Program-made: the position numbers and the translations under genes | From: Jaapia argillacea MUCL 33604 | Lineage: Eukaryota > Basidiomycota > Agaricomycetes > Jaapiales > Jaapiaceae | NCBI GenBank assembly: GCA_000697665.1 | Contig: KL197736.1 | Coordinates: forward strand, 160,406 to 224,405 | Direction: 5' to 3' | Length of the DNA: 64,000 nt | Shown: in pieces, positions 741-50,599 of the stretch | Layout of the letters: each line of letters begins with the position of its first letter | Numbering within the stretch: position 1 is the first letter of the stretch | Notes under the pieces: generated by a model | What the model saw: the letters and a program-made list of their open reading frames with translations, nothing else | Database searches by the model: none | Told to the model about the DNA's origin: nothing

Positions 741-3700
741 TGTGGGGTACTCGGGGTGCATGAGTTCCAAGTGAGGGGTAGTTGTTTGTCTTCAATGGAA
801 ATCGAAGAACGGGAGGGATCAGTGTTTCAGGATGCAGAAATGTGTAGGACAGACTTAGTAAGGTCCAATATTGATGTGTCCAGTAATCAGAACACAAAGG
901 GAAACTCAACTCAACACAGTGATAGTGGAGGAGTAATCCTGAGGGGAGGGTGTGCTATGGTGAGTACTTGTGTGGGTGTCTAGAACATTGGGAATCGAGT
1001 CGGACTACACCACTATTCTGCCAACATCTGCCTGACATGTGGCTGACTCCGGGGTCCCACGGACTCTCTGCACAAGGTGCCCACATGTCCAACCTGTGCC
1101 ACACATCTTCACTTAGAAATGTATACATTATGCACACACTTCGGGTGTGGTGCACATGTAACTACTGGTGGTCTGCTGAGGCCTGAGGGGCGACATTATG
1201 TGCCTTCCGTGTATCTGCAAGTGAGCATCAAAGGTTAGATTTGTGTGTTTCTTATCTTATTCTTCCAACCAGAACAATCCAATCCTCTGCTACGAAATGC
1301 CCACACTCGAACAAACTAGCCACAATAGCTAGATAGACATGAGATTCCACACCCATATATTGAAGTGATACTAGGTATGATACACAGTAATAAGGTAGGG
1401 AGCTAGTTACGAGAAGCAGTGGGGATATATGAAACAACAAATTGTCAATGTCAACCTCGAGTCTATCATGTCAAGCTTGAGAGTAATTGGCAGGAAGGCT
1501 AACCAGACATAGGGCCACAAGATCCACTGAGAACAGTAATGATTTGAGAGAATATAACATTTGAGCCAGGGAAGAGTGCGCCAACATAAAACAAAAGGAG
1601 AGCAGAGATGTGGGGAAGTCTAATGGCAGTCAGAGACTTCAAGAGGTGTCAGAACCAGTAAGTCAAGACGAAAACCAGCACGGGCAGCCATCGAGCCAAA
1701 AAGTCGTCACAAGAGAACCAGCTTAGCCATACCATCCTGTCGAGTCAAGTATCAGTTTGCAATGGATTCAAGTGTGCCAGGAAGACTGAGATATGTATGT
1801 TGGGGCATTGGAAACTTCGAGGCAGAAAACAGTCGTGATAGCAGATTGGTCAATTCCAACAGTATGGTGGCCATACCAGGTGCAACTCTGGCGATTGTAC
1901 ATGATTTGAGGATATGTAACAAGGAGAAGAGTGAGGGATGATCGATGAGGTCGCGACTGGAGGTTGAAACGTTGACCGGGAGAGATGGAGGGAGGTAGGA
2001 AGCAAAGTCGACAAGCGACCCAAACAAAGTTGAACAAGCATGTGCCCACATTAGGGTGGGCAATTCTGAACTTGGGTGAGACATGCACTGAGTCGCAAGG
2101 TCAAAATATTAATCTGTTGACTCGTCGCATTTTTCAGAGACTTAGGAATCAAGGATGTATCATAGTTGGATTGTCAAATAAAGACTACTGGGCCCTCTCC
2201 ATTCCAGAAAAGATTGATGGATGGCACAGGCAGCATCCTCTGCACATCACCACCTGCACTCATTTCTTACATGATCACCATCTTCAAATAACCACAGTTA
2301 TGTGCCCACTGCCCAGCCTGTATGCAACACATGGCTCACAGGAAACCTCACATCTGCCCAGCACAAGTGGCCGATTCTGTTCCACTCCTCATTGTCGCAC
2401 GGTCAACAGATGCAACTAAATTAGAAAAGACAGGAGCAACCGAAATGTGGGATGCATGGGCAGGCAGGTTGGTGGTGTACTCGGAAATCTAAGGATACAA
2501 TACAACAAAACTAACTGTAAGACGTGTGACGAAAGCAAACTAAAATGATAGGAAAGCAAAGAAATCAAATCAAAACGGACTGAAACTAATACATCGGGAT
2601 AGGAACAAAAGGAAAACACTAATTGGAACAAAATAAGATCGGAATGAATCGAAAAGAAAGTGTCGAGATAGAACGTGAAGGTCGGGAAACATCAACACAA
2701 GTCAAAAGTAAGAAAAACCAGAAATCCCGAAGATAAAGAAGTCTGAAGCCCAAGACAGTTAGATTCTGGGGGGATGCTAGAGAGCAACACAAGGACAAGC
2801 TTAGATTGAGAGCACAAGGGTGAACGACATCCGAGAGCGACTCAGGACAAGAGAGATCACGAAAGATTGTTATTGGGAAAGTAGCTACAGACAGGTTTTT
2901 ATACCTAAGTACATGAGGTAGCTATGGAATAGGAAAGGATAAAGGGAAAGGGGAATTTGGGACAACATGAGGGTGAATCAAGTGAAGGAGTGCACAACAA
3001 AAGAGGGGGACAAGTTGGAAAACAAGTAACTGAGGTAAAACATACTGAGTATCCTTGGAAGTGAGTGAAGTCCTAGCAGAGGCATATCGGACCGAAAGGG
3101 GAAGTGCACAGAAGCCTCAGGATGAGCAGGATCTATAGTAGTTAATCTCAGAAACCTAAAGTGAGTATCTTCCTGATTGAGGACTCAGTCCAAGAGCACA
3201 GACATGAGGTGTAGAAGTTGATAAGCAATGGTGTGGAGAGTGATGTAAGTGTTTTGTAAATCCCGGAGTATCGGATCATCAGAACGTGTTGTGGCAGTGT
3301 ATTGGGGACTCGGATCATCGAGATAAAGAACTTCCTGATAAGATTGTCAAGGTTCCGGAGACGTGCAAGGTTGTAAGTCCAAGGTGGTGAAGGAGGAGTT
3401 CTGAGTCGAATCGGATGTCTCGGAGTCCTAGGAACGTTCGCATCGGGTGCATCGGAGTCGTATCGTCGGGTCGAATATGGTCCTGACTTGATAACGTCGG
3501 AATTCCCGATGCTGAATGACGTGGAGGTGAGATAGTGAACAACTAGTCTCGAGTTGAATTCCGATGTTTCGGACTCCTAGGAACGCTTGCATCGGGTGCA
3601 TCGGAGTCGTATCATCGGGTCGAATATGATCCTAGCTCGATAACATCGGAATTCCCGATACTGAGCGACGTGGAGGCGAAATGGTGGACATCTGGTCTCG

Positions 3701-7424: not shown

Positions 7425-7617
7425 GTCTCGGTGCTGTCTAGTGAGCTACACCATAAGTTTCGCTACAACGCTTGAAATGTGGTGCTTTGTAGCAACAAAT
7501 ATGGACAAACAAATGCTTGTGCAAACTCCCTAGTTATACAATTCTTCCTCCCAATGGGATCTGTCCCCAGCTCCCTAGCTATAGCGTGCTTGTTCTTAAA
7601 GGCACTTGTAAGACTTG

Positions 7618-9018
7618 ATACAATTCTGATGCACCCAATGCAAGTGTTCATAGGAGTCCGGAACATCAGAATTTGACTCAAGACTAGTTGTTCACCATCT
7701 TGCCTCCACGTCATTCAGTATCGGGAATTCCGATGTTATCAAGTTAGGACTGTATTCGACCCGACGATACGACTCCGATGCACCTGATGCAAATGTTCCT
7801 AGGACTCCAAGACATTTGATTCGACTCAGAACTCCTCCTTCACCACCTTGGACTTACAACCTTGCACATCTCCAGAACCTTGACAATCTTATCAGGAAGT
7901 TCTTTATCTCGATGATCCGAGTCCCCGATACACTGCCACAACACGTTCTGATGATCCGATACTCTGGGATTTACAAAACACTTACATCACTCTCCACACC
8001 ATTGCTTATCAACTTCTACACCTCATGTCTGTGCTCTTGGACTGAGTCCTCAATCAGGAAGATACTCACTTTAGGTTTCCAAGATCAACTACTATAGATC
8101 CTGCTCATTCCGAGGCTTCTGTGCACTTCCCCTTTCGGTCCAATACACATCCGCTAGGACTTAACTCGCTTCTGAGGATACTCAGTATGTTTTACCTCAG
8201 TTACTTAACTTCTGACTTGTCCCCCTCTTTCGTTGTGCACTCCTTCACTTGATTCACCCTCATGTTGTCCCAAATTCACCTTTCCCTTTATCCTTTCCTA
8301 TTCCGTAGCTACCTCATGTACTTAGGTATAAAAACCTGTCCATAGCTACTTTCCCAATAACAATCTTTCATGATCTCTCTCGTCCTGAGTTGCTCTCGGA
8401 TGTCGTTCACCCTCATGCTCTCAATCTAAGCTTGTCCTTGTGACACTCTCTAGTGTCCCCCTCAGAATCTAACTGTCTTGGGTTTCGGACTTCTTTATCT
8501 TCGGGATTTCCAGTTTTTCTTACTTTTGACTTGTGTTGACATTTCCCGACCTTCACGTTCTATCTTGATGCTTTCTTTTCGATTCATTCCGATCTTATTT
8601 TGTTCCGATTAGTGTTTTCCTTTTGTTCCTATCCCGATGTATTAGTTTCAGTCCGTTTTGATTTGATTTCTTCATTTTCCTATCATTTTAGTTTGTTTTT
8701 GTCACATGTCTTACAGTTAGTTTTGTCATATCGTATCCTTAGATTTCTGAGTAGTCTGACTCGATTCCCGACGTTCCGGACACCCATGCAAGTACTCGCC
8801 GTAGCACACCCTCCCCTCGGGATTACTCCTCCACTATTGCTGTGTCAAGTTGAGTTTCCCTTTGTGTTCCGATTACTGGACACATCACTTCCGGACCTTA
8901 CCAAGTCTGTCCTATACATTCCCGCATCCCAAAACACTGATCCCTCCCATTCTTCGATTTCCATTGAAGACAAACAACTACCCCTCACTCAGAACTTATG
9001 CACCCCGAGTACCCCACA
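7618..9018 (+). mobile_element. LTR-like fragment, inverted partner of 741-4039
   Basis: This block matches the minus strand of 741-4039 over most of its length, without the 1,470-bp insertion. It includes the shared TATAAAAACC box near 8330 and the same 3' end, ACCCCACA at 9018. The 5' part seen in the partner (starting TGTGGGGAAC) is missing, so this copy is truncated at about 7618. No protein-coding parts of a retroelement are present. It lies between the Harbinger element and the long-TIR element. It is a fossil of moderate age judged by frequent mismatches to its partner. Confidence 0.55.
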
Positions 9019-9402: not shown

Positions 9403-10957
9403 CACTGAGGGACAAAAGTATTTTGGGTTGGCCCAATTCGGCCATTTTGGACTAACCAGCGCAATTGAAGTTCTTTCTCAGACACGTAGTAGAAGGTATA
9501 TGTGTATTATCCATGCACAAAAAAAGACAGAAAACTGGAGTCCATATTGATCCCGAAAATAGCCCAAAAAGTTCTAAGGGTGCGTGACTGGAAACGGAGG
9601 AAGTGATTGAAACCTCCAAACAAACCAAACGAGAGATGATTGAACTGACCTGATTTAATATCGAGTATGGCCACCCTTCACACTCTTCAGTGCCGCGATG
9701 CGATCAGGCATTCCTTGATACAGTCTCTGGATATACGCCAAGTCGATCTTGTACCACTCTTCCACCATTGCCACCCATAATTCATCCACAGACTGAGGTG
9801 GGGGATTTCGGCCCCTCACCTGTCGATCCAGTTGATCCCAAACATGCTCGATGATGTTCATATCCGGACTCTGAGGGGGCCAGGGAAGTAAATGGAACCC
9901 ACTCTCGGACAACCATTGGGTGGCAAGCTTAGAAGTATGCTTCGAATCTCCGTCTTGCTGGAAGAAATACTGATGGGGGTCCATGTGGTAGTCGTAGGCA
10001 GTGCCAGTAGCACCCTCCTCCAGTATCACAATATAATCTGCAGCATTCATAATCCCAGACACCCGAAGAATGCGACCAACACCCTTTGACGTGACACATC
10101 CCCACACCATGAGGCTTCCCCCACCGAATTTCTTGGTATTCTGAGTATACCTCTCTTGAGAACCATCTCCTACCCTCCTCCAACACCATGCACGCCCATC
10201 CGAATGGAACAAATTGAATTTGGACTCATCCGAGAAAATCACCTTCTCCCATGCCTGACTATCCCAAAGCCCCACTGCTCCAGCCCAAATTCGACGCATG
10301 CGCTTGTGTCGCTTCGTGAGAAAGGGCACCTTCCGACGAACTGCTGGAATCAGTCCCTGGTCCCGAATGGCCCTCCGTACAGTTTTGGGGTGGACATTTG
10401 GGAAGTAGTTCTGCTGGAGGTCTGTGCAGTTGAGAGAGCGCCCTCGATCAAGCTGTAGAACACCAAATTCGGCATCCTTGGTGGTGAGCTTCCGTGGACG
10501 ACCCGTCTTCGGCTTTGGATAGCAGCCGTCGCCACGACGAAATTTATTGGTGATGTTACGGATGGTTTGTTCGGTCCGATTGAAAGCTTTTGCAATTGAC
10601 TCAACAGAACGGCCGGCATTCCGGAGTTCGACAATGCGACCACATATAGCAGGAGATGTGTAACCCATAGAATGCAGGAAACTGTTTGTGGGACGTTGTC
10701 GGCAGAGAAAACACTCAGAGAGAGGTTCGAAGATGTCCAGCCAGCGCATCAGGCGCGTCAGTCACGTGGGTGCTTGTGTACAATCGAAGTTTTCTCCCAG
10801 ATCTGTAGCCATTTCATGTGCTCCTTCGTTGAAGGGATAGGTGACAAGGATATGTATATACAGGCACTGAAGATACGAGACAATTTCTCGCTTTACCCGT
10901 ACCAGTGAAGTTACCGTGACAGGGGTCACCGACCCAAAATACTTTTGTCCCTCAGTG
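9403..10957. mobile_element. Tc1/mariner transposon, structurally intact
   Basis: The element of 1,555 bp has terminal inverted repeats starting CACTGAGGGACAAAAGTATT on both ends, identical over about 26 bp, and is flanked by TA on each side (9401-9402 and 10958-10959), the invariant Tc1/mariner target. It contains a single long open frame for a DD34E transposase on the minus strand. It lies inside the long-TIR element 9060-12677 and is younger than it. Intact ends, matching TIRs and an open frame suggest recent insertion and possible activity. Confidence 0.92.
9655..10749 (-). CDS. Tc1-type DD34E transposase
   Basis: An uninterrupted 364-aa frame. The N-terminal part has the paired helix-turn-helix DNA-binding region (about residues 30-110, including GRSVESIAKAFNRTEQTI and the GRPRKL AT-hook-like linker). 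The catalytic core follows: FSDESKFNLF carries the first Asp, FQQDGDSKHTS the second, and WPPQSPDMNIIEHVW the Glu. From the Asp of QQD to the Glu there are 34 residues, which is DD34E as in Tc1 itself. The GGGSLMVWG motif is also present. Translation could instead start at the internal Met at 10668 (MGYTSPAICG), which begins the DNA-binding domain and gives about 337 aa. No stops or frameshifts are seen. Confidence 0.92.
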   Translation of the reverse strand: MRWLDIFEPLSECFLCRQRPTNSFLHSMGYTSPAICGRIVELRNAGRSVESIAKAFNRTEQTIRNITNKFRRGDGCYPKPKTGRPRKLTTKDAEFGVLQLDRGRSLNCTDLQQNYFPNVHPKTVRRAIRDQGLIPAVRRKVPFLTKRHKRMRRIWAGAVGLWDSQAWEKVIFSDESKFNLFHSDGRAWCWRRVGDGSQERYTQNTKKFGGGSLMVWGCVTSKGVGRILRVSGIMNAADYIVILEEGATGTAYDYHMDPHQYFFQQDGDSKHTSKLATQWLSESGFHLLPWPPQSPDMNIIEHVWDQLDRQVRGRNPPPQSVDELWVAMVEEWYKIDLAYIQRLYQGMPDRIAALKSVKGGHTRY

Positions 10958-12197: not shown

Positions 12198-13004
12198 CCC
12201 ACAAACAGCAGGACAATATAACCACTTGACCACAGGATCTTTGATAAGAGTGGTATCTGAATGTACAGATAGCGAAAATAGCTCCGCTATTTTTGATTAT
12301 TCTTTTTTCTTTTTCTTTTTCTTTTACCCACAAACACCGGTATCTTGCCGAATGGTGCTTCCAATTTCTTGATTTTCGGTAAAATAAAAAAAAAGCAGCT
12401 GCCGCTGTCTCCAACGATGAGCGCGACTATTTCGCCGCCGCGCCAACCGACGTTCATGTCGTTGCGAACAACGCCCGCACTTTGGCGCTTCTCGGCTAAT
12501 ACTGGCATCAGTCTTCCTCGGCTAGAACTAGGCACCCTCGGGCTTGACACCCCCCGAAATCCCTGGACTTCGGGATCAGCAACCCTCCCTGACTTTGCTC
12601 AGCTTTCGTTGACTTAGCGGTTTCTCGCTTAACCCGGGTTTCCAGCAGAAACTGGGGTTTCTGGATAGCATTATCCCGTTCCATCATACACTGATACTGT
12701 ATATACAGTATAAAACATTGCTTTTCTTTGAATTCTGTGAATTGACTCCAGACACCATAACAGGCCTAATCATGTCTTCTTTGCCTCATTTCACCACGCA
12801 ACCTAAGGAAACGCCGTTCATTCTTTTAGGTGTGCCTTTCCCACCGTTCCGGCTTGAGCTTCTATAACGCGGTTGCTTAGTACCTCGAGGAGGACACCGC
12901 GTCTGTCGATCAATCTGAAGTCATCTATGAAGGCATGAGGAGAACACGGTTTCGAAATGAAGCCACTCATTCCAGTCGTTGTGCAGGATCGGAGGACATC
13001 TCGA

Positions 13005-13050
13005 CGGCACATATAAATCGCCACGAATGCTTCATCGAGTACTTACCAAC
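13005..13050 (+). promoter_or_regulatory. TATA-box promoter of exon-array GTPase gene 1
   Basis: ATATAAAT at 13011-13018 lies about 100 bp upstream of the chosen start codon, inside a segment that is conserved with the region upstream of the second exon-array gene (TATAAC at 41451). The conserved words CGCCACGAATGCTTCATCGA follow the box in both copies. The pair of conserved TATA-like boxes at the same relative place supports a core promoter. Confidence 0.5.
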
Positions 13051-13435
13051 TTGAATCTTTACTCTCATATACCCAACATGCTGAAGAGCTTGAAGAAGTA
13101 CGCTCCGCTATGTTCACGTTGATGTCTAACAGTCTCATTGACAATCAGCTTAGGTTTAGTAGCGATAACATATCATATCCGATCTCGGTTGGGAGTATGA
13201 AGGCCGCCAGCCCCGGAGTTCAGGAGAAGGACCCGGGCCTCGGCGCCAAGGAGTGTGCCAAATCCCCTACGGCGATGGAAAATACCGAAAATCCACACCC
13301 TAACGGAAGTAACGTTAGTACCATAGCTTTTCCAGTTATTGCCGGAACGCACTCCCTCACGGGACAACCGAGCGGGCGTCAGTGAGTAATCTGGTCATGC
13401 GAGAACCTCGGGTGTTGCTGATCTACCTCTTATAG

Positions 13436-15892
13436 GACTGGTACTACCCCAGATGATGCTACAATTTCCTTGAACGGCGCGGTTATTAATCTGTACCCTC
13501 TGCCATGTTCACGCTACCGCAGTACTGACCATCCACTCGGTACTCGTAGCACGTCGAGTCCCATCCCCGTTGGGAATGCCGCGGGTACCAGTTTGTGGGC
13601 TCAGGAGAACCTCGCCGTCAAGGTGCCCGACAACCAGGAGTACCTTGCTTCAGCCACTAATACTGAAAATCAACACGCCGGTGTTGTCGATTCCTCAGTT
13701 ACTGCAGCAATTCCCTCTCCCACTGACCAGCCGAGTGGGTAAGTAATCCGACCATATGAGAAGCTTCACGGCCGATGATCTATCATTGTACAGAACCGGT
13801 ACCTCTCCAGATGGTGAACCCGCCAGGGTGCTTGACAACGAGGAATCCCCCGCTTCGGTCACGGATGGAGCAGGTGTGGACAACGTACCCTCGCCACAGG
13901 ACTCTGCCGAAAGATACACAACTGCCCAGGACTCGTCTCCTGCGCTGCCCTACATCAAGAATAGCGAATTCGCGACCACGGCTATCTCATCATCACCGCC
14001 AACAATTCCTCGTCGTTCTCCTCTCCGTCCGGCCCCGCGACCTCGCGCTGCATCTCTCAATCCACCGCCAGATCAACAACCTATCACTCAAATGCGGCTC
14101 CTCCATGCCAAATCTTTCGGCACCCTCTCTGGTTTCCTCAGTTCCATCACCCAACAGACTCATCTCGTCGACGTCCTCGAACCATTGCCCCTTCCGCCTG
14201 ATCCTGCTCCCGACTTGACTCTCCCGCTTTCACCTAGTGTTGAAAATCAACACACCTGGGCTGTAGATCCCTCGATTACTCCAGGAATGCCCTCTCCCAT
14301 CGACCAACCTAGCGGGCAAGTAATCTGACCACATGAGAACCTCAGAGCCGCTGATGTATCTCTTACAGAACTAGTACCTCTCCAGATGGTGCACAATTGC
14401 CTCTGCCCGGTGCGGCTATCAATTGGAAGACTCCGCCATGTTCAGATTACCGCACTACTGGTCATTCCCTCCGTATCCATAGTAGGTCAAGTCCCTTCCC
14501 CGTTGGGAATACGACGGATGACAGTTTGGGAACTGGGGAGAAGCCCGCCGAGGTGCTCGACAACAAGGAGTGCCCTTCTTTGGCCACTAGTACTGAAACC
14601 AGTGCTATCGACTCCTCGGTTGTTGCAGAAACACCGTCTTCCACCGACCAGCCGACAGAGCAAGTAATCTAACTATATGGGAGCCTTCGGGGCCGCTGAA
14701 CTACCTCTTACAGAACTGGTACCTTTCCGGATAGTGCACAATTGGTTCTACCCGGTGCGGCTATCAATTGGAACACTCCGTCATGTTTAGATTACCGCAC
14801 TACGGGACATTCCCTCCGTACTCGTAGTACGTCGAGTCCCTTCCCCTTTGGGAATGCGGCGGGTACCAGTTTGGAGACTCGAGAGAAGCCCATCGAGGTG
14901 CTCGAAAAAAGGCAGTTCCCCAAGTCCCCTGATTCGGTCACTGATACTGAAAATCAATACCCTCGTACTGTCAGTTCTTCAGTTGCTGCAGTAGGACCAT
15001 TTCCCACCGACCAACCCAACGCGCAAGTAATCCTGTCATATGAGAACCTTCGGGGCTGCTGATGTACCTCTTATAGAACTGGTAACTCTCCAGATGATGA
15101 GTCCGTCAAGGAGCTCGACAACAAGGCGTCCCCAGCTTCGGCCACGAGTGCTAAAAATCAATACGCCATTGTTGTCGATTCCTCAGTTACGGCAGGAATA
15201 CCCTCTCCTAGCGACCAACCCAACGGGCAAGTAATCTTGGCACATGAGAACCTTCGGGGCCGCTGATATACCTCTTCTAGAACTGATACCTCTCCAGATG
15301 GTGAGCCCGTCAAGGTGCTCGACAACAAGGAGTCCCCAGCTTCGGCCACTAGTGCTGAAAATCAACACGCCATTGTTGTCGATTCCTCAGTTGCGGTGGG
15401 AACGCCCTCTCATGGCGACCAACCCACCGGGCAAGCAATCTTGGCACATGAAAACCTTCGGAGCCGCTGATATACCTCCCCCAGAACTGATACCTCTCCA
15501 GATGGTGAGCCCGTCAAGGTGCTCAACAACAAGGAGTCCCCAGCTTCGGCCACTAGTGCCGAAGATCAACACGCCGTTGTGGTCGACTCCTCAGTTGCGG
15601 CAGGAATACCCTCTCATCGCGACCAACCCAACGGGCAAGTAATCTTGGCATATGAGAACCTTCGGGGCCACTGATATACCTCTTACAGAACTGATACGTC
15701 TCCAGATGGTGAGCCCGTCAAGGTGCTTGACAACATGGAGTCTCCAGCTTCGGCCACTAGTGCCGAAAATCAACACGTCATTGTCGTCGACTCCTCAGTC
15801 GCGGCAGCAATACCCTCTCCCACCCACCAACCTAGCGGGCAAGTAATCTGGTCATATGAGAACATTCGGGGCCGCTGATTTACTTCTCGCAG
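13436..15892 (+). repeat. tandem phase-2 exon/intron array, gene 1
   Basis: Eight consecutive exon-intron units resemble each other in both exon and intron. Exon lengths are 303, 522, 291, 309, 150, 150, 150 and 150 nt, all multiples of three. The introns following them are 53-55 nt and share a sequence around GAGAACCTTCGGGGCCGCTGAT followed by a TACAG-type acceptor. The introns at 14316, 14660, 15023, 15227, 15431, 15635 and 15839 start GCAAGT or GCAAGC. The one at 13739 starts GTAAGT and that at 13382 starts GTGAGT. The last four units repeat with a period of exactly 204 bp. Long exons hold an extra block (YAPPCSRYRTTGHPL-like) that short exons lack. Exon 3 also has a unique proline-rich insert. 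Confidence 0.8.
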
Positions 15893-18050
15893 AACTAGTG
15901 ATTCTCCGGATCATGTTCCCCACTCGTACGTGCTATGTTCCCGCCAATTCCCTAGAGACTTGTTGAATATCCCCTCAGTGCTGATAAACACGGCGAGCCA
16001 CAAGTAATCCCGAGGCTGGCTGGTAATGCGGAGGCCTTCAGCTTGGCGGTTCAGGAGAAGAAATCAGCTAAAGAAGTCGAATGCCAAAAATCATCCCCCC
16101 CTTCGGCTTCAGAAACCATCGTTGAAGATCAAGGACGCGCCAACGGAGCCAGCAGTCGCCGAAAGGAACGACGTGTCACTGAGATATTAGCTGCAGGAGG
16201 CTCCTCCAACTCTGACAAACCGAACGGGCGAGTAATCTGATGATACGAGTTTCTCCTGGGTCGTTGACTTACTCCATGCAGATTTTCCTCGACGGATGAG
16301 GTGTGTATCATTTCCTGGCCTCGTGGCTGTGAATCAATGTCCTGATTAACCCTGTGACTAGGATGCTCAGTTGTAGGCCCCTTCATCTTTCTCGAGATAG
16401 GAGATACTCATACACTTGCTGTAGGATCGACGAACCGGAAAATATTAAAGGATCGTGGATTCGGAATCCGTATGTGTTTTCGCTTCCCAGTCCCGCGGTC
16501 CCTTCTGATGCGTCGCTCCTCCCAGCGCGAAGAAGACCCTTTTGAACCACTTGGCATGTACTTTCCTGTCATCCAGTTGATTTGAGAAATGACGAGCGTG
16601 TCAGCCTAAGGGCGGTGACAGTGCGAAATCCCAGCAACGCAAGGGGTCTTTTGACCGAACCTCTTTCCGCGCACAGCTCGTCAAAATCGACGACCTCAGC
16701 CCAGAGGATGTAGTTATTGCGTGAGTCGTGTACCCTCCTCGTCAGATATCCGATATTCTAACACGTTCTATCTCTAGGGTGATAGGCCCCTCTGGATCTG
16801 GAAAAAGCACGGTGAGTGAAGTCAACTTCATATCCAGATGGCACCCGCTCAGCCTCAAATGAAGTTTGTCAGCCATGTCACCGGAGCGGAAGTAACAGTT
16901 GGCCACAGTTTGCAGTCGTGCACATCAGAGGTGCAAGTAATCAAGCTTCAATCCCCGAATAGCGGCTACGACGTGGTCTTCATTGACACTCCTGGATTTG
17001 AAGATACGCCCGAGTTGGATAAGCATATTCTGAACTCGATCTTGGATGGGTTGAATAAACCGTATGTATTCTTCATTGCTTAGGAACACTTGGTTCACCT
17101 TTCCCAGGTATAATAAACAGATTCTTCTGAGTGGCATTCTCTACTTCCACCGTATTTCCGACAATCGCATGGTGGGTAAACCCCTCATACATCTTGATAT
17201 GTTTCAGAAGCTCTGCGGGAAAAACGCTCCCGAGAAGGTCATTCTGACCACGACTATGTGGGACCAAGTCGATAAGTTAACGGGGAACGCACGGGAAGAG
17301 GAGTTGAAGACAATGAACTGGAGCTATATGTTGTCGAAGAAATCGAAGACCTCACGCTTTCTCAATACCCCCGAATCGGCTTGGACAGTCCTAGAACCCA
17401 TACTACGTTCGGCGCGTAAGGAACGTGCCTTGATGCCCGACGTCGAAGTTGTTAGTCCTGACGTCGAAGTTGTTAGCCCCGACGACTGCGTCATCGCGTA
17501 CGTAGTTTCTCCAATTATCAATACATCTATGGCACTAACACGACAACAGAATCATGGGTCCCACGGGGTCAGGGAAAAGCAACGTATGATATCGTTTGTA
17601 CTAACCCACGCGTTTTCTGACAGAGGAGTAGCTCATCGACACCCTCATGGAGCAGAAGGGGACCAAGTACCAACGATCGGGCAATTCGCTGGAATCTTAT
17701 ACGGACAAAGTGCAAGCTGTTCTGCTGCCCCCTGCCTTAGCGACGAAATATATTCCCGCCACACAGAAACGCGTCGTGCTGGTCGATACTCCGGGGTTCG
17801 ACGACACGAACAAGACGGATACGGAAATCCTGGACATGATTGGTGATTGGTTGACAAAAACGTGAGGTCAACTACTTGTGACAAACTTCCGTACTTGACT
17901 GGGTATATAGGTACAAGAACCAAGTTAAACTCGCGGGGATTATCTATCTCCATCGGATCTCAGACAATCGCATGTCTGGCTCCCCGCTCAAGAACCTCCG
18001 CATGTTTGGGAAGTTGTGTGGAGACACTGCAGCCCGCCGCGTTGTACTCG

Positions 18051-19936
18051 GCATCGGGAAAAACCTCCCGCGCTAGCCCAAGCTAATTAGGTTCCGTTAG
18101 TCCTAAGTGCCAGCTAACTGCACTATTCTGGCTTATTCCAACTAAGTATTCAAGACGCTTGGGGGTTGAGTTCACCCACGTCTACTAGTAACTAGATACA
18201 GTTCGATACATGCAGAATACGATCTATATCTATCCAGAAACAATCTGGCTACTGTGGAGGCCAGGGAACAGAACGGAATATGAAAAAAATGGAGCATGGG
18301 TTTGGGTATCAAGCAACAAAATGGAGGTAGAGCATGGGAGAAAGAGGGGGTTGGAAGGACTGGGAAGCTATGCTAATTATCACCGGGACCGAAATTCGGA
18401 AGTTGGTCCGTACTCAGATTCCGACGATTCTTCATGAGACCCTCGGGGATGGTAAGAAAGAGAAAGATGGAGGGGTAACTGAGAGGAGCATGGTTGATCC
18501 CTGGGTAGGTTGTGGTCTGAATGTCGTCTGGCCGTGAAGCTCGGTGTAGCTTGTAACATGGGCAGAGAGTCTCCCGGAGCAAGCGGTGATGCAGAAGGGA
18601 AGCAAAACGGCAGATCCAGCGTCCAAAACGAGGAGAGTACTAGTTGGCTGTGGCGGAAGCGCACCAACCATAGGCTTCGTTCGTGGCAGCAGAGAGTTTG
18701 GTAAATAGTGAGATCCAGGCTGGAGCAGCTTGGGAGCAGCCTTGCGAAACGATTCGCCAAGTCCAACTTGAGAATGAAGCGGAGCTTGAACTGGAGTCAG
18801 ATGACAGGTTGAACTTGCATCGGGAGCTTTGTGTCCTCTTTGCCATGTCGTCGTCGTTCGTGATGACAACGCCTCTGCAGGTAACTCACCTCCAACTCCC
18901 TTATCTTGATCCAAGGGCTATCCAATCTCCCATTCCTCTACTCAATCTGATTGCCAAGCCAAGCCATACCGCTCTACTGAAGTGAGTTTTTCTCCCCTCT
19001 GCTGCGAACTTACCTGGATCCCACTGTTCCCAGGTAACACAATCCTGACGGGCATTTGGTGGGAGACTACCAAGGCTGGGAGCGCTTCGCGCTCTTGGTG
19101 TTTGTTTTCCCGGCGCACCCTTGGTAAGTGACTTTATTTGTTTATGATGTTGGCATCCCAGCCTTCCGATTCTAACACTGCCCCCTCTTTTCGGTAGATT
19201 GAAGGTTTACAATGGAGTTCGGCTGTTGGGAGATGATCTCCCTTGCGGCTCCCGTTGAGCCAGTGTATCTGGTATGTCGGGATTCTCGCGCGCTCTCGGA
19301 CAAAGTCTAACGCGCTCCTCGCTGCTACCAGAGCCCAGTTCTCGTCCAACGGATTCCAACCACATCACCAATGCTCCCTCCTCGACACCAGCCCCTTCTA
19401 ACTCGCTGAATCCACATGTCAACTATATGTAAGTGTCAAAATGGCTTGTTGTCACAACCGTGCTGATCGTCATCCCATCTTAGCTGCCTTTACACCTGAA
19501 TCGAATCACAGTTATGCGTGTAAGTCCCTCCCTCGTTTGCCATCTTACTTCATCTTCTGATACCCCGTGTTGACGCAGCCCTCATCACGACTTTGGTATC
19601 ATCTGAGATGGCTTATGGGAGTTGCAGGGATGGTAGTTGAGGTTTGGATGTTTCCGTCGTGTACTCTCTTTGGTGCCCTATGTATTAGCTACATTTGCAA
19701 TGGAGTTACTTCGACCTTCTTTCGTCTGCGATGCAAGGGTTAATGAAGATTAGCTTCAAGAAAAGAGGGATAATCGTGTGTTTATGAGCTTCTAAACCGA
19801 CTAATCGAACTAAGGGCGGAGAATTAGGAGGGAACTTATCTAATTAGATCTAATTGACTTATCCACCTAATCGGGGCTTATTGGCGGTTATTAGATATAA
19901 TTACATCTAATTAGCGCGGGAGGTTTTTCCCGATGC
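18051..19936. mobile_element. TIR element inserted in GTPase gene 1
   Basis: Perfect inverted termini of about 25 bp (starting GCATCGGGAAAAACCTCCCG) border a 1,886-bp block that splits the codon run of the G2 domain. The direct repeat TCG flanks it (18048-18050 and 19937-19939). The uninterrupted paralogue at 50055-50080 reads straight across the site and confirms the ends. Subterminal regions are rich in CTAATTAG/TCTAATTA words. No transposase is recognised, so it is probably non-autonomous. A 3-bp duplication and subterminal repeats would fit CACTA or PIF-type elements, but the terminal bases match neither well. Confidence 0.85.
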
Positions 19937-21284
19937 TCGTATCGTCGATGTGGGACAAAATGGGTTCGGATCTCGCGGAAAAGAGGGAGGCGGAACTGAA
20001 GAACAATTTTTGGAAAGGGATGTTGAGAAACGGAGCCAGCGTTGATCGTTTCGCTGACTCACCCGTGTCTGCATGGGAAATCGTCCGCAAAATTATCGAG
20101 AAGAAGGATGATCTGGAAGCGCTTCTACTACAGGAGGAAATGGTGGATCTCCGAAAGCGTCTCAACGAGACCGAGACCGGAAAGGCACTTTACACTGGCC
20201 TTCAAATACTCCTTTCGGAGCAGCGGGAAACCATTCGCATGCTCACCCAGCAGGTAACATCGCATGACAATGAACAACTCGCGAAACTGTTGGAAGAAGA
20301 AAGCGTGCGTATTCAGAAGGACTTAGACGCTACATTCGTCCAAATCAAGCAGTTGAAGATCAGTATCGGAAGGAGAATCATGATGTCATTCAAGTTCAAG
20401 AAGGCCCGCGCGGTGAGCTCGAGCTCCATCTTCAGTATTTGCGTCGATCTGAGTCATCTGACCTTCCGCCAGGGTCCCATCGATGTTCCCCGGACGCGGC
20501 CCGACGTGGTGATTGCGTGAGTGAGATCATCGCACACTCGGCGGACGAGACAACTAACCGCCTCTTGGATAGGATATTGGGTGATGGGGGCTCTGGAAAG
20601 AGTACGGTGAGATGAGGTTTTCATCATCGAAATAGATGGAACCATGTATACTCACAACTGCCAGCAGTTCGTTGACTCCGCTGGAGTCGTGGATGGGTCG
20701 CACCCGGTGGATGTCCACAATGGGATGGTTCCCAGGCAGCACATTGCTTCTTCACACAAGCTCATGCAAAATTGCGCCTTTGACATTGTGTTGGTTGAAG
20801 TACCTGGCCTTGTGGACGCACATGAAGCTCTAGAGCATCTGGCTTGGTGGCTGAAAGTCAAGTAAGTCTATCTAGAGTGCTATTACTTAATCACTTGTTC
20901 ACTTTTCTTTTCCCCCTCAGATTTGTCGACGACAAACCCCCCTTCATTGGGCTCATCTATATTCACGACATCACCAAACCGAGGATCACGTACTCTAAAG
21001 ACAAGTACGATCCAATGTTTTTTGAAGTCTTAGGGAAGGAGTGGTTCAAACAAATCGTCGTTGTTTCGAACATGTGGAGTAAGCTCGAGGAGCAAGATTT
21101 TCACCAGCAGCTAGCCAACGAGGCGCTCCTGGAAGGCCACTGGGTAAGTATATTGCCGAAGATAGGCTGGAAGCCCATTATGCACCGCTTCTCAAAGACG
21201 AGGGACTCAGCTCGGGAGATCCTAGAACCCTTGATAAGCTCTGCCGAGAAGAAATGAGCACTGTAAATATAGCTGTATTGGTCC

Positions 21285-41439: not shown

Positions 41440-41480
41440 CCTCCTTTCTCTATAACCGCCACGAATGCTTCATCGAATAA
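41440..41480 (+). promoter_or_regulatory. TATA-like promoter of exon-array GTPase gene 2
   Basis: CTCTATAACCGCCACG at about 41448-41463 corresponds in position to ATATAAATCGCCACG upstream of exon-array gene 1. The surrounding 250 bp are also related between the two loci, including ATCTATGAAGGCATG and GAATGCTTCATCGA. Confidence 0.45.
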
Positions 41481-41524
41481 CTACTTGAACCTTTACTCTC
41501 ATACACCCCTCCGATCCAGTCAAC

Positions 41525-44500
41525 ATGCTATCATGGTACGCATCGCTATGTTCACGTTGTTGTGCTCAGCCCCGCTGACAATTCGCTTAGGTCTCTTAGC
41601 GGTTCCATCGCCTATCTACGTGGTACCGGAACGCCCTCCCCCATGCAACCACCGAGCGGGCCCCAGTGAGTAATTTGGTCATGCGAGAACCTCAGGTGTC
41701 GCTGATCTGCCTCTTACAGGACTGGTAACACCCCAGATGATGCTGCATCTTCCCTGAGCAGTGCGGCCATGAAATCGTACGCTCCACCATGTTTATGTTC
41801 CTGCACTACTGATCCTCCCCTCGGTATTTGTAGTACGTCGAATCCCATCCCTGTTAAGAATGCGGCGGATACCAGTGTCGGGGCTCGGGAAACGCAGGTC
41901 GAGGTGCTCGAAGACAAGGAGTTCTCTAAGTCCCCTGCTTCGGTCACTGGCGCTGAAAATCAGCGCTTCAGTACTGTCAATTCCTCAGTTACCGTAGTAA
42001 CGCCCCCTCCCACCGACAAGCCGAGTGGGCAAGTAATCTGACCATATGAGAGTCTTCGGGGCCGCTGATCTATCTCTTACAGAACTGATACCTCTTCAGA
42101 TGATACGCAGTTGTCTGTCGGTGCGGCTATGAATGTGTACGCTCCGTTATGTTCGCGTTACCGACTACTGACCATCCAAGCGGTATTCGTAGGACGTCGG
42201 ATCCCGCCCCTGCTGGCAATGCTGCGGGCACCAGTTTGGAGACTCTGGAGAAGCCCTCCGCTTCAGCTACTAGTGCTGGAAATCAACACGCCAGTGCTGT
42301 CGATTCCTCAGTTACTGCAGTAACACCTTTTCCCACCGACCAGCTAAGCGGGCAAGTAATCTGGCCATATGAGGACCTTCGGGACCGCTGATCTACCTCT
42401 TGCAGAACCGGTACCTCTCCAGATGATGCACAATTAACTCTGCCCGGTGCGGCTATGAATTGGTACGCTCTGCCATGTTCACGTTACCACTCTACTGACA
42501 ATCCCCTCGGTACTCGTAGTACGTCGAGTCCCATCCCCGTTGCTGCGGGTACCAATTTCGGGACTCTGGAAAAGCCCGTCGAGGTGCTCGAAAAGGAGTT
42601 CTCCGGGTCCCCCGCTTCTGCCACGGGTGCTGAAAATCAACAGGCTCGTACTGTCGGTTCTTCAGTTACTGCAGCAATACCCTTTCCCACCGACGAACAG
42701 AGCGGGCAAGTAATCTAGCCATATGAGAACCTTCCCGTCCCTGATCTACCTCTCGCAGAACTGCTACCTCTCGAGATGGTGCACAATTGTCTCTGCGCGC
42801 TGCGGCTATGAATTATGCTCCGCCATGTTCACGTTACCGCACCACTGGCCATCCCCTTTGTACTCGTAGTGCGTCGAGTCCCTTCCCCGTTGGCAATGCG
42901 GTGGATACCAGTTTGGTGGGGATGGTAACCCCGGTGCTCGAAAAAAAGCACTTCTCCAAATCCCCTAATACGGCCACCGGCGCTGAAAATCAGCACGCCA
43001 GTGTTGTCGATTCCTCCGTTACTGCAGTCACACCTCCTACCACCGGCCGGCCGAACGGGCAAGTAATCTGACCATATGAGAACCTTCACAGCGACTGATC
43101 TTCCTCTTACAGCACCGGTACCTCTCCAGCTAGTGCACAATTGTCTGGAACCGGCGCGGCTATGAATGTGTACGCTCCGCCGTGTTTACGTTGCCGCACC
43201 ACTGGCCATCCCTTCCCTACTCGTAGTACGTCGAGTCCCTTGCCCTTTGGGAATGCGGCTGGTAGCAGTTTGGAGACTCGGGAGAAGCCCGTCGAGGTGC
43301 TCGAAAAAAAGCAGTTCCCCAAGTCCCCTGATTCGGCCACCGGTGCTGAAAATCAACAGGCTCGTACTTTCGGCTCTTCAGTTGCTGCAGTAATACCCTT
43401 TCCCACCGACCAACCCAGCGGGCAAGTAATCCTGTCATACGAGAACCTTCGGGGCTGCTGATCTACGTCTTACAGAACTGGTATCTCTCCAGAAGATCAG
43501 TCTGTCAAGGTGCTCGACAACAAGGAGTCCCCAGCTTCGGCCACTAGTGCTGTTCAACACGCCATTGTTGTCGATTCCCCAGTTGCGGCAGGAATACCCT
43601 CTCCTAGCGACCAACCCAACGGGCAAGTAAGCTTGGCATGTGAGAACCTTCGGGGCCGCCGATATACCTCTTACAGAACTGATCCCTCTCCAGATGATGA
43701 GCCCGTCAAGGTGCTCGACAGCAAGGAGTTCCCGGCTTTGGCCACTAGTGCTGAAAATCAACACGCCATTGTTGTCGAATCCTCAGTTACGGCAGCAATA
43801 CCCTCGCCTAGTGACCACCCCAACGGGCAAGTAATCTTGGCGTATGAGAACCTTCGGGGCCGCTGATATACCTCTTCCAGAACTGTTTCCTCTCCAGATA
43901 GTAGGCCTGTCAAGGTGCTCGACAACAAGGAGTCCCCAGCTTTGGCCACTAGTGCTGAAAATCAACACGCCATTGTTGTCGAATCCTCAGTTGCGGCAGC
44001 AATACCCTCGCCTACTGACCACCCCAACGGGCAAGCAATCTTGGCATACGAGAACCTTCGGGGCCGCTGATATACCTCTTACAGAACTGATATATCTCCA
44101 GATGGTGAGCCCGTCAAGGTGCTCGACAACAAGGTGTTCCCAGCTTTGACTACCAGTGCTGAAAATCAACACGCCAGTGCTGTCGATTCCTCAGTTGCGG
44201 CAGGAATACCCTCTCCCACTCACCAACCTAGCGGGCAAGTAATCTGGTCATGTGAGAACCTTCGGGGCCGCTGATTTACTCCTCGCAGAACTAGTGATTC
44301 TCCGGATCATGTTCTCCACTCGTACGCGCTCTGTTCGCGCCAATCCCGTAGAGATTTGTTGACTATCCCCTCAGTATTGGTAAACACGGCGAACCACAGG
44401 TAATCCCGAGCCTGGCTGGTAATGCGGAGGCCTTCAGCTTGGGGGTTCAGGAGAAGAAATCTGCTAAAGAAGTCGGATCCCAAAAACCATTCCCCCCTCC

Positions 44501-46113
44501 GGTTTCAGAGACTAGCGCTGAAAATCAAGGACACCCCAACGGAGCTGGCTCCGTTCGCCGAAACCAACGACGTATCACTGGGATGTTTGCTGCAGGAGGC
44601 TCCTCCAAATCTGACAAACGGAACGGGCGAGTACTCTGATGATACGAGTTTCTCCTGGGTCGTTGACGTACTCCATGCAGATTTTCCTCGACGGATGAGG
44701 TGTGTATCCTTTCCTCGCCTCGTGGCTGTGAACCAATGTCCTGATCAACACCGCGATCATTATGCTCAGTCGTATGCTCCTTTTCATCATTATCGAGATA
44801 GGAGATACTCATACACTTATTGTAGCACCGACCCACCGGATAATAGTAAGGGATCAAGGGGTTGGAAACCGTAAATGCTTTCGCTTCTCAGTCCCACTAT
44901 CCCATCTGATGCGTCGCTCCTCCCAGCATGAAGACGCTTTTGAAGCTCTCGGCATGTACCCTTCCTGTCATCCAGTTGAAATGAGTAATGACGACCGTGT
45001 CAGCCTAAGGGAGGTGGCAGTCCGAAAACCCAACGTAAAGGCTCTTTTGATCAAACCTCTTCCCGCGCAACCGTCGTCAACATCGACGACCTCGGCACAG
45101 AGGACGTGGTTATTGCGTGAGCCGCCTAACCTCATCGTTAGATATCCGATATTCTAATATGTTCTATCCCTAGGGTGATGGGCCCCACAGGATCTGGAAA
45201 AAGCACGGTGAGAGAAGTCAACTTCATACTCAGATGGTACCTGCTCAGCCTCAAATGAAGTTTGTTAGCCATGTCACCGGAGCGGAAGCGAAAGTTGGCC
45301 ACAGTTTGCAGTCGTGCACATCCGACATACAAGTAATCAAGCTTCAATCACCGAATAGCGACTACGACGTGGTCTTCGTTGATACTCCTGGATTTGACGA
45401 TACGCACAAGTCGGATACAGTCATTCTGAACTTGATTTCGGATTGGTTGAATAAAACGTATGTCTTCTCCATCGCTCAGGAGCGCTTGGTTTACCTGTCC
45501 CAGGTATAATAACAAAATTCTTCTGAGCGGCATCCTCTACTTCCACCGGATTTCCGACAACCGCATGGCGGGTACGCCACTCAAAAATCTTGATATGTTT
45601 CAGAAGCTGTGCGGGAAAAACGCACTCGAGAACGTCATTCTGACGACGACTATGTGGGACGAAGTCGATGAGTCAACGGGGAGCGCACGGGAAGAGGAGC
45701 TGAAGTCAAAGTACTGGAGTTACATGTTGGCGAAGAAATCGAGGACCTCGCGCTTTCTCAATACACCCCAATCGGCTTGGGCAGTCCTAGACCCCATACT
45801 ACGTTCGGTGCATGAGGAACGCGCCCTACTGCTCCAAACGGAGATGGGGGAGTTGCGGCGAACTCTCCCCGAAACCTCAGCTGGGCACGGACTCTTCAAT
45901 ACCATGGAGGAACTTCTCAAGAAGCAGCAGCATGTGCTTCGGAGGCTTCAGGAGGAGACGATCAAGTCGACTGATTCAGACGTTCTGGAGACCTTAACAG
46001 CCGAATACAGTAGGCTTCGGCAGGAAGTTGGGAAGACGATGGAGCAGATGAAAGCCTTGCAGTTGCCGTTTGGAAAGCGCTTGCTCCTCAAGCTCCTTCG
46101 ATTCAACCGATGA
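41525..46113 (+). CDS. exon-array GTPase gene 2
   Basis: Same design as the gene at 13110-21257 but with one G domain. Array exons run 41720-42028, 42083-42351, 42406-42705, 42759-43058, 43113-43421, 43476-43622, 43677-43826, 43881-44030, 44085-44234, 44289-44321, 44375-44626. Then come linker exons I could not fully resolve, the P-loop exon 45174-45207 (GPTGSGKST), 45234-45457 (SHVTGAEAKVGHS, DTPGFDDTHKSD) and 45504-46113. The last exon holds YFHRISDNRMAG, LTTTMWDEVDES and a C-terminal coiled coil ending LLKLLRFNR. The G domain is intact. The start is doubtful: the first exon is out of frame with exon 2 compared with gene 1, so translation may begin at 41769 (MKSYAPPC). The exon at 42083 has lost one base near 42165 and is 269 nt, so it would shift frame unless skipped. 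Confidence 0.65.
41720..44288 (+). repeat. tandem phase-2 exon/intron array, gene 2
   Basis: Nine repeated exon-intron units. Eight of nine exons are multiples of three (309, 300, 300, 309, 147, 150, 150, 150 nt). The one at 42083-42351 is 269 nt. The nine introns following these exons, from the one at 42029 to the one at 44235, all start GCAAGT or GCAAGC, are 53-54 nt long and share the GAGAACCTTCGGGGCCGCTGAT core. As in gene 1, long exons come first and 150-nt exons last with 204-bp spacing. The intron after 44626 starts GCGAGT. Intron and exon similarity between units and between the two genes points to repeated unequal exchange or conversion. Confidence 0.8.
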
Positions 46114-49454: not shown

Positions 49455-50599
49455 ATGGCCAAATCTAACATCGATGCCGAAGCTGTTAGCCCTGACGACT
49501 TGGTCATCGCGTACGTGGCTTGCCAGCTTATCCACTCATCTCTGGAATTAACACGAAAACAGAATCATGGGTCCAACGGGGTCTGGGAAAAGCACTGTAT
49601 GATATCGCTTGTACTGGCCCGTGCGTTCTCTGACAGAGGAGTAGCTCATCGACACGCTCATGGAGCAGAAAGGCCAGCGATCCGGCACATCGTTGAATTC
49701 GTGTACGGACAAAGTTCAAGCTGTTCGAGTTCCCCGTGATTTAGTGTCGAAACACATCTCCGCCACCCAGAGCCGCGTTGTGCTGGTCGATACACCGGGA
49801 TTCGACGACACGAAGAAGACGGACACGGAAATTCTGAAGATGATCGGCAACTGGTTGGCAAAAACGTGAGCGCGTCGACTTCAGATAGTTCGACGAACCA
49901 GACACTCAATCCCTAGTGTATAGGTACGGGAATAAGGTTAAGCTTGCAGGGATTCTCTATCTACATCGCATCTCAGACAATCGCATGTCTGGCTCCCCGC
50001 TCAAGAACCTCCGCATGTTTGGGAAGTTGTGCGGAGACACTGCCGCCCGTCGCGTTGTACTCGTGTCATCGATGTGGGACAGATTGCAGGACCAGGAACT
50101 CGCACGAAGGAGGGAGGCGGAACTGAAGGACAATTTTTGGAGAGGGATGCTGGACAACGGAGCCAGCATTGATCGTTCCGCCAACTCGTCCGAGTCTGCA
50201 TGGCGTATCGTCCGCAAAGTTGTCCAGAATAAGGAAGAACGGGAAGCGCTTTTACTGCAGGAGGAAATGGTGGATCTCCAGAAGCATCTCAACGAGACCG
50301 AAGCCGGAAAGGCACTTTACACCACCCTTCAGAAACTCCTTTCGGAGCAGAAGGAAACCATTCGCCTGCTTGCCGACCAGGCATCCCAGGCCAATCCAGA
50401 AGTGGCGAAGGAGTTAGAAGCAGAACATGCACGTCTTCAGAAGGAGTTGGACGCTACATTCGTCGAAATCAAGCGGTTGAAGATCCCTTTCGGAAGGAGA
50501 ATCATGATGTTCTTCAAGTTCAAGAAAGCCCGTGGGGTGAGTTCTACCTCTATCGTCCGTCTTCGCGTCGATCTGACTTTCATTCAGCGCGCCGTCTAG
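49455..50599 (+). CDS. single-domain AIG1-like GTPase
   Basis: Five exons (49455-49510, 49563-49596, 49645-49865, 49924-50536, 50588-50599) give 311 aa. Exon 1 encodes MAKSNIDAEAVSPDDLVIA. The 34-nt exon 2 is the P-loop IMGPTGSGKST. Exon 3 carries LIDTLMEQKG and VVLVDTPGFDDTKKTD. Exon 4 has LYLHRISDNRMSGSPLKNL, VLVSSMWDRL, a long coiled coil (LLLQEEMVDLQKHLNETEAG onward) and a basic end (GRRIMMFFKFKKARG). The last exon adds RAV and the stop. It looks intact. It is the closest paralogue of G2 in gene 1 and of the minus-strand gene at 61595-62749. Confidence 0.85.

Follow-up and report, generated by a model that had tools for sequence, protein, structure and literature searches.

A 64,000-nucleotide (nt) stretch of the genome of the basidiomycete Jaapia argillacea MUCL 33604 (contig KL197736.1, positions 160,406 to 224,405; hereafter the window, whose own numbering is used throughout) contains two paralogous arrays of short, closely similar introns, most of which begin with GC. 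GC is the donor dinucleotide of 18 of the 21 repeat introns, eight in array A (13382-16281) and ten in array B (41666-44680). The arrays, their paralogy, their reading frames, the avoidance of stops and the conservation of the splice signals are observed directly in the sequence. The arrays are probably the outcome of one or a few GC donors having been multiplied through duplication of phase-2 exon cassettes.

Organization of the two arrays

The window has a G+C content of 49.8% and introns of about 50 nt, and the best matches with solved structures for its L19 ribosomal protein include fungal chains, all of which fits a fungal origin. Array A comprises ten repeat introns of 53-55 nt, every one in phase 2 and ending in AG. 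Its features, like all those of array B and of the neighboring GTPase regions listed below, lie on the plus strand. The first array exon (13110-13381) is taken from a putative start, the earliest in-frame ATG in 13000-13381. Intron 1 (13382-13435, 54 nt) reads GTGAGT..TAG and intron 2 (13739-13793, 55 nt) reads GTAAGT..CAG. Between them lies a 303-nt repeat exon of the long type (13436-13738), and intron 2 is followed by a 522-nt exon (13794-14315) that resembles the repeats at both ends. The inner part of this exon, some 370 nt (roughly 13863-14234), has no self-match in the window at an E value of 1e-10. All further repeat introns of array A carry a GC donor: GCAAGT at 14316-14368 (53 nt), 14660-14713 (54 nt), 15023-15076, 15227-15280, 15635-15688 and 15839-15892, GCAAGC, lacking a GT at +5/+6, at 15431-15484, and GCGAGT..CAG at 16228-16281. 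The ten donor words agree with those given by an earlier reading of the letters (the sequence-only reading). The exons that separate these introns are of the long type (291 nt, 14369-14659; 309 nt, 14714-15022) or of the short type (150 nt each, 15077-15226, 15281-15430, 15485-15634 and 15689-15838). A 335-nt exon (15893-16227) and the last array exon (16282-16345), open up to a TGA common to copy B, complete the array.

Array B, which the sequence-only reading had overlooked, emerged from Tandem Repeats Finder (TRF), from the donor motif and from self-comparison. It holds 11 repeat introns, ten of them with GC. The first (41666-41719) is GTGAGT..CAG. Nine GC-AG introns, starting at 42029, 42352, 42706, 43059, 43422, 43623, 43827, 44031 and 44235, occupy 42029-44288 together with the exons between them, and the tenth (44627-44680, GCGAGT) is the counterpart of 16228. 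The exons between 41720 and 44234 measure 309, 269, 300, 300, 309, 147, 150, 150 and 150 nt, so that eight of the nine are multiples of three. The 269-nt exon (42083-42351) carries a one-base deletion. This exon is bounded by phase 2 on both sides and could be skipped without frameshift; decay or an assembly error are alternative explanations of its length. Region 14237-17429 matches 42627-45825 with 84.9% identity. TRF finds 204-nt units in both arrays (15008-15896 in array A) and an additional 353-nt unit in array B.

Use of GC as the donor

The sequence-only reading held that GC donors keep the exons at multiples of three and that a GT four bases downstream (GTAATC) breaks the frame. For the eight exons between 13436 and 15838 both statements hold: all eight are multiples of three and stop-free with GC, and none is a multiple of three with GT at +4. 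They fail for exon 15893-16227, which has 335 nt and in-frame stops with GC, and for the donor at 16228, where GT gives a multiple of three. With the last exon of each copy set aside, 16/17 exons of the two arrays, of seven distinct lengths, are multiples of three. Cutting at GTAATC with the usual acceptor would leave each of these 16 exons one base over a multiple of three.

Other splice sites were compared in an alignment of 19 introns with their flanks, considering every GT or AG column shared by 70% or more of its 16 GC introns. Donors at -53, -41, 0 and +4 were combined with acceptors at 0 and +17 (eight combinations in all). The sole combination free of stops in both arrays was GC at 0 with AG at 0 (0 stops; 1200 nt in six exons of A, 1506 nt in seven exons of B). 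The remaining seven gave 7 to 14 stops per frame, with at least eight in every frame of the tested stretches for GTAATC and the usual acceptor.

A GT at +4 is present in 16/18 GC introns and missing at 15431 and 44031. Such a GT is the ordinary +5/+6 of any GTRAGT site. The rest of the donor is near the U1 consensus, with GCAAGT or GCGAGT in 16/18 introns and GCAAGC in 2/18. The calculated duplex with U1 reaches -7.2 to -8.7 kcal/mol at 14/18 GC sites; when these sites are shifted by four bases downstream, the values are -3.0 to -4.5 kcal/mol. Among all 18 GC sites, the shift costs more than 2 kcal/mol at 16.

Conservation of the introns points to the same splice sites. Over a tree with a length of 3.53, no change is seen at +1 G, +4 A, +5 G, the GA of the branch site or the final AG, whereas the 39 sites outside the splice signals show 2.3 changes on average. 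Position +2 is exclusively C or T. The five canonical sites (+1, +5, branch A and AG), which were chosen after the counts had been seen, from general knowledge of introns, are all among the 11/54 unchanged positions (p 0.00015). The AATC at positions +7 to +10 is also well conserved, with 0.75 changes per site as compared to 2.32 at positions 11-35. RNA folds of four introns were unremarkable (z -0.22 to -1.23).

Several points weigh against GC as the donor, or against the weight of the above counts. The repeats are not independent, and the frame counts therefore overstate the evidence; the duplex program permits register shift. At 14660 and 15023 the U1 duplex is weak and about equal to that four bases on, and at the two GCAAGC sites (15431, 44031) it amounts to -5.6 kcal/mol. 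The GT at +4 makes exons 15893-16227, 44289-44626 and 42083-42351 multiples of three, which GC does not. Of these, the last exons of the two copies (335 and 338 nt) are compatible with GC only via a further proposed intron. Their in-frame stops are internal and are present with either donor. Removal of a 53-nt GT-AG intron in phase 2 (GTACGT..CAG, 15926-15978 in A; 44322-44374 in B) leaves an open phase-2 exon with a GC donor in both copies. With this extra intron, the exons of array A join into one 880-codon frame, from the ATG at 13110 to the TGA at 16345. Overall, use of GC as the donor appears well supported by the frame, the avoidance of stops, the conserved splice signals and the paralogous array.

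Spread of the cassette and origin of GC

The idea that the GC introns spread by duplication is supported by the TRF units and by the self-comparison, both of which show exon and intron repeated in register. The sequence-only reading had further proposed that GC derived from the GTAAGT of intron 13739. This is disfavoured by intron trees built from five alignments or data sets, with bases +2 and +3 excluded and no possibility of rooting: in five out of five, 13739 nests among GC introns. Each of the five trees requires two C/T changes at +2, one of which falls on the branch of 13739. The intron-1 pair (13382/41666) stands apart from the rest with bootstrap values of 96-100. Intron 42029, a GC intron, is the positional counterpart of 13739 in array B, and the exon end GAGTGG is common to both; the two are sisters in no tree. 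The most economical reading, favoured and not proven, is that GC would be older than most of the duplications and that 13739 would have reverted to GT. The GT of intron 1 may be either the ancestral state or a second return, since the trees are compatible with both, and recombination among the repeats adds uncertainty.

Alternatively, GC may have arisen more than once from GT copies, 13739 included, or via a short indel at the exon end and not by one substitution. We regard this as a possible, if doubtful, course of events. It draws on the two C/T changes and the impossibility of rooting the trees, and on the test of a single GC clade, which was rejected at p<0.05 in two of the five data sets and not in the other three (p-AU from the approximately unbiased test: 0.0034, 0.15, 0.082, 0.026 and 0.076). 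It also draws on intron 1, which carries GGGCGTCAGTGAGT where the array carries GGGCAAGT and whose exon end has 6 extra nt and permits either alignment. In addition, 298 GT-to-GC changes are reported for mammals as compared to 40 GC-to-GT changes (PMC2490688), a bias that speaks against the return to GT proposed for 13739. On the other side, GC is also found in 16228/44627, the most divergent intron pair of the family, and two changes suffice in all trees.

We keep to an early GC donor, copied many times, and this bears on how exceptional the arrays are. The sequence-only reading had called them so, and the 18 GC introns are indeed present. However, this number counts copies and not events, and one origin may suffice. 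The surprise is smaller than claimed because one GC event followed by duplication can account for all 18.

Coding status of the arrays

The 16 intact exons amount to 1264 codons with 0 stops. In simulations without constraint (0.09 or 0.18 random substitutions per site), a mean of 7.1 or 13.2 stops accumulated and 0/400 runs remained stop-free at either rate. When the introns are read through, a stop is met in 20/21, the exception being 43623. Exon lengths differ by multiples of three save for 42083-42351, whereas the introns differ by single bases. Together with the conserved splice signals, these results speak for coding arrays.

Other results are less favourable to a maintained protein. Between the array exons of A and B, the ratio of nonsynonymous to synonymous rates (dN/dS) was 0.92 (bootstrap 0.69-1.23; seven exon pairs, 489 codons; the unpartnered exons 13794 of A and 42083 and 42406 of B and the last exon were omitted), showing no amino-acid constraint. 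In these seven pairs, 80, 95 and 89 changes fall on the three codon positions. The neighboring GTPase gave a dN/dS of 0.43 (0.26-0.75; 168 codons), an interval that just overlaps that of the array exons. Differences between A and B affect 264/1467 exon sites as compared to 51/389 intron sites outside the signals (ten intron pairs of ten; Fisher p 0.023, for sites that are not independent). Exons are thus at least as divergent as introns. The lower divergence of the introns may perhaps reflect gene conversion. In array B, the one-base shortfall of exon 42083-42351 relative to the seven other long-type exons causes a frameshift: ten stops appear when the exon is included, and its omission leaves 720 open codons from exon 41720 to the TGA shared with A. 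No start matching that of A was found in B, where the sole in-frame ATG in 41480-41665 yields seven codons.

These observations could mean that both arrays belong to gene copies in decay or without function, in which a once-coding repeat is still open through recent duplication and conversion. The second GTPase downstream of array A, whose match to its relative is split into two parts separated by about 1.9 kb, is in line with such decay. The absence of stops where 7 to 13 are expected, the exon lengths differing in threes and the conserved splice signals argue against it, and we hold it unlikely. Relaxed decay is nevertheless a real rival to the reading that we prefer, in which the open frame would be maintained while the residues would be little constrained, as in a disordered repeat rich in serine, proline, alanine and threonine. 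The predicted protein of the arrays has this composition. A Pfam search with the array A protein (674 amino acids, last exons excluded) gave no match at E values up to 1.

A proposed course of events

The preferred explanation can be set out as follows. Two paralogous genes would each carry head-to-tail exon cassettes, mostly of about 150 or 300 nt, in phase 2 and separated by introns of 53-55 nt. The intron of the cassette would begin with a GC donor whose U1 context is mostly good (GG/GCAAGTAA), and it would have an ordinary branch site of the CTGAT type and an AG acceptor. With such an ordinary branch site, AG and U1 context, it is most likely the major spliceosome that cuts at GC. A GC donor predating most of the duplications would have been copied with its exon by tandem duplication and later by gene duplication. 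Because the exons are symmetric, the frame would survive the gain, loss or skipping of a copy. Each array would code for a repeat protein rich in serine and proline, immediately ahead of a GTPase or, less securely, in fusion with it. For use of GC in the transcript, for a single origin and for the mode of copying, this is what we infer. An extension of this scheme, which we consider speculative and rather improbable, is that weaker GC donors combined with interchangeable phase-2 cassettes would act as a device for length variation. Through skipping and inclusion, one gene would then give rise to numerous isoforms that differ in a disordered repeat region, and the damaged cassette 42083-42351 would be tolerated by skipping.

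Two further explanations fare poorly. Spread of a mobile intron by repeated insertion, in the manner of introners, would explain many near-identical introns within one window. However, all 12 matches to the 27-nt intron core (up to three mismatches; 0 in 100 shuffles) are confined to the two arrays, none being found at unrelated sites or genes elsewhere in the 64-kb window, and the exons repeat in register with the introns, as in tandem duplication of exon and intron; we judge such spread very improbable. Least credible of all is cutting at GTAATC, in view of the frames, stops, missing GTs and weaker duplexes described above.

Relation to the GTPase and other features of the window

The sequence-only reading placed array A in a GTPase gene. 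The array does lie directly upstream of a GTPase; its membership in the GTPase gene is not established. The TGA common to A and B precedes the GTPase. Splice paths from the array to the P-loop exon that are shared by both copies numbered 0 under strict rules and 17, all weak, under loose rules. Loose rules also give three weak paths that begin past the array, at ATGs conserved between A and B.

The GTPase region downstream of array A (16721-17429) has GT-donor introns from 16721, 16812 and 17062, and that downstream of array B (45117-46113) has GT-donor introns from 45117, 45208 and 45458. The GTPase of B matches MMR_HSR1 with an E value of 4.8e-10. GT is the donor of all 12 GTPase introns considered (three each after A, after B, at 17.5 kb and at 49.5 kb), a weak baseline since they were placed by eye and GT was sought. 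At 17.5 and 49.5 kb the second acceptor broke the frame, so that the donors alone are usable there. A search for relatives of the GTPase in a viral contig collection returned seven stretches fitting a pattern, none of which was confirmed.

The match of the GTPase after A to that of B ends near 17429; there, a second GTPase begins, with a 21-nt repeat. This suggests a fusion of two genes at 17400-17500. The second copy aligns to 49478-50576 as two segments (17465-18056 and 19936-20452), as though DNA had been inserted. By eye, more open frames with a GTPase-like motif around RISDNR are seen at about 38, 40, 47, 50, 56 and 62 kb, on both strands, pointing to a local family cluster. Elsewhere, the window contains an inverted repeat of about 1.1 kb (2478-3614 and 7616-8753, 92.6% identical) and, near it, a Tc1/mariner-like transposase (DDE_3) at 9655-10758 on the minus strand.

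Significance and comparison with known systems

If the proposed reading is true, a single genome would offer its own series of natural replicates, namely 18 GC-AG introns in register that hardly differ in length or sequence, with GT instead at one position. Such a series would allow the efficiency of GC donors and the bias towards exon skipping to be measured, which is impossible with single scattered GC introns. It would also mean that a rare splice word can turn locally common by duplication alone, and such arrays would be annotated wrongly by gene finders that do not accept GC as a donor. A scan of the viral contig collection for the exact intron pattern returned no match, and no title on an array of GC-AG introns was found among the matches listed in a search of the open-access literature.

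Tandem duplication of symmetric exons is known in repeat proteins, for example collagens and titin. As in those cases, a one-phase exon has been copied head to tail together with its intron; here, unlike there, the donor of the copied intron is non-canonical. The bases before a GC-AG donor are usually AG, whereas in the arrays they are mostly GG. In other respects the introns resemble GC-AG introns of the U2 type, with a GC donor in an otherwise strong consensus, an ordinary branch site and AG, and an exchange of GC for GT, or the reverse, at a single site. GC donors are indeed described as tending to retain the remaining consensus and to interchange with GT (PMC2490688). They usually form a scattered small minority, whereas here 18 near-copies are gathered in two arrays; in fungi, 98.7% of introns are reported to be GT-AG on average (PMC7072748).

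Regulated splicing of C. elegans let-2 is reported to require a GC donor (PMC2490688). Like the arrays, this donor lies within a gene for a repeat-type protein, a collagen. However, let-2 concerns a single intron with demonstrated developmental regulation, whereas any regulation of the array introns would be conjectural. Fungal introner-like elements also comprise many similar introns, as described in PMC4457414. In that description, introns are gained at new sites, whereas here the exons have been copied too. Overall, the arrays would fit GC-AG introns of the U2 type multiplied by duplication of symmetric exons, and not introners.

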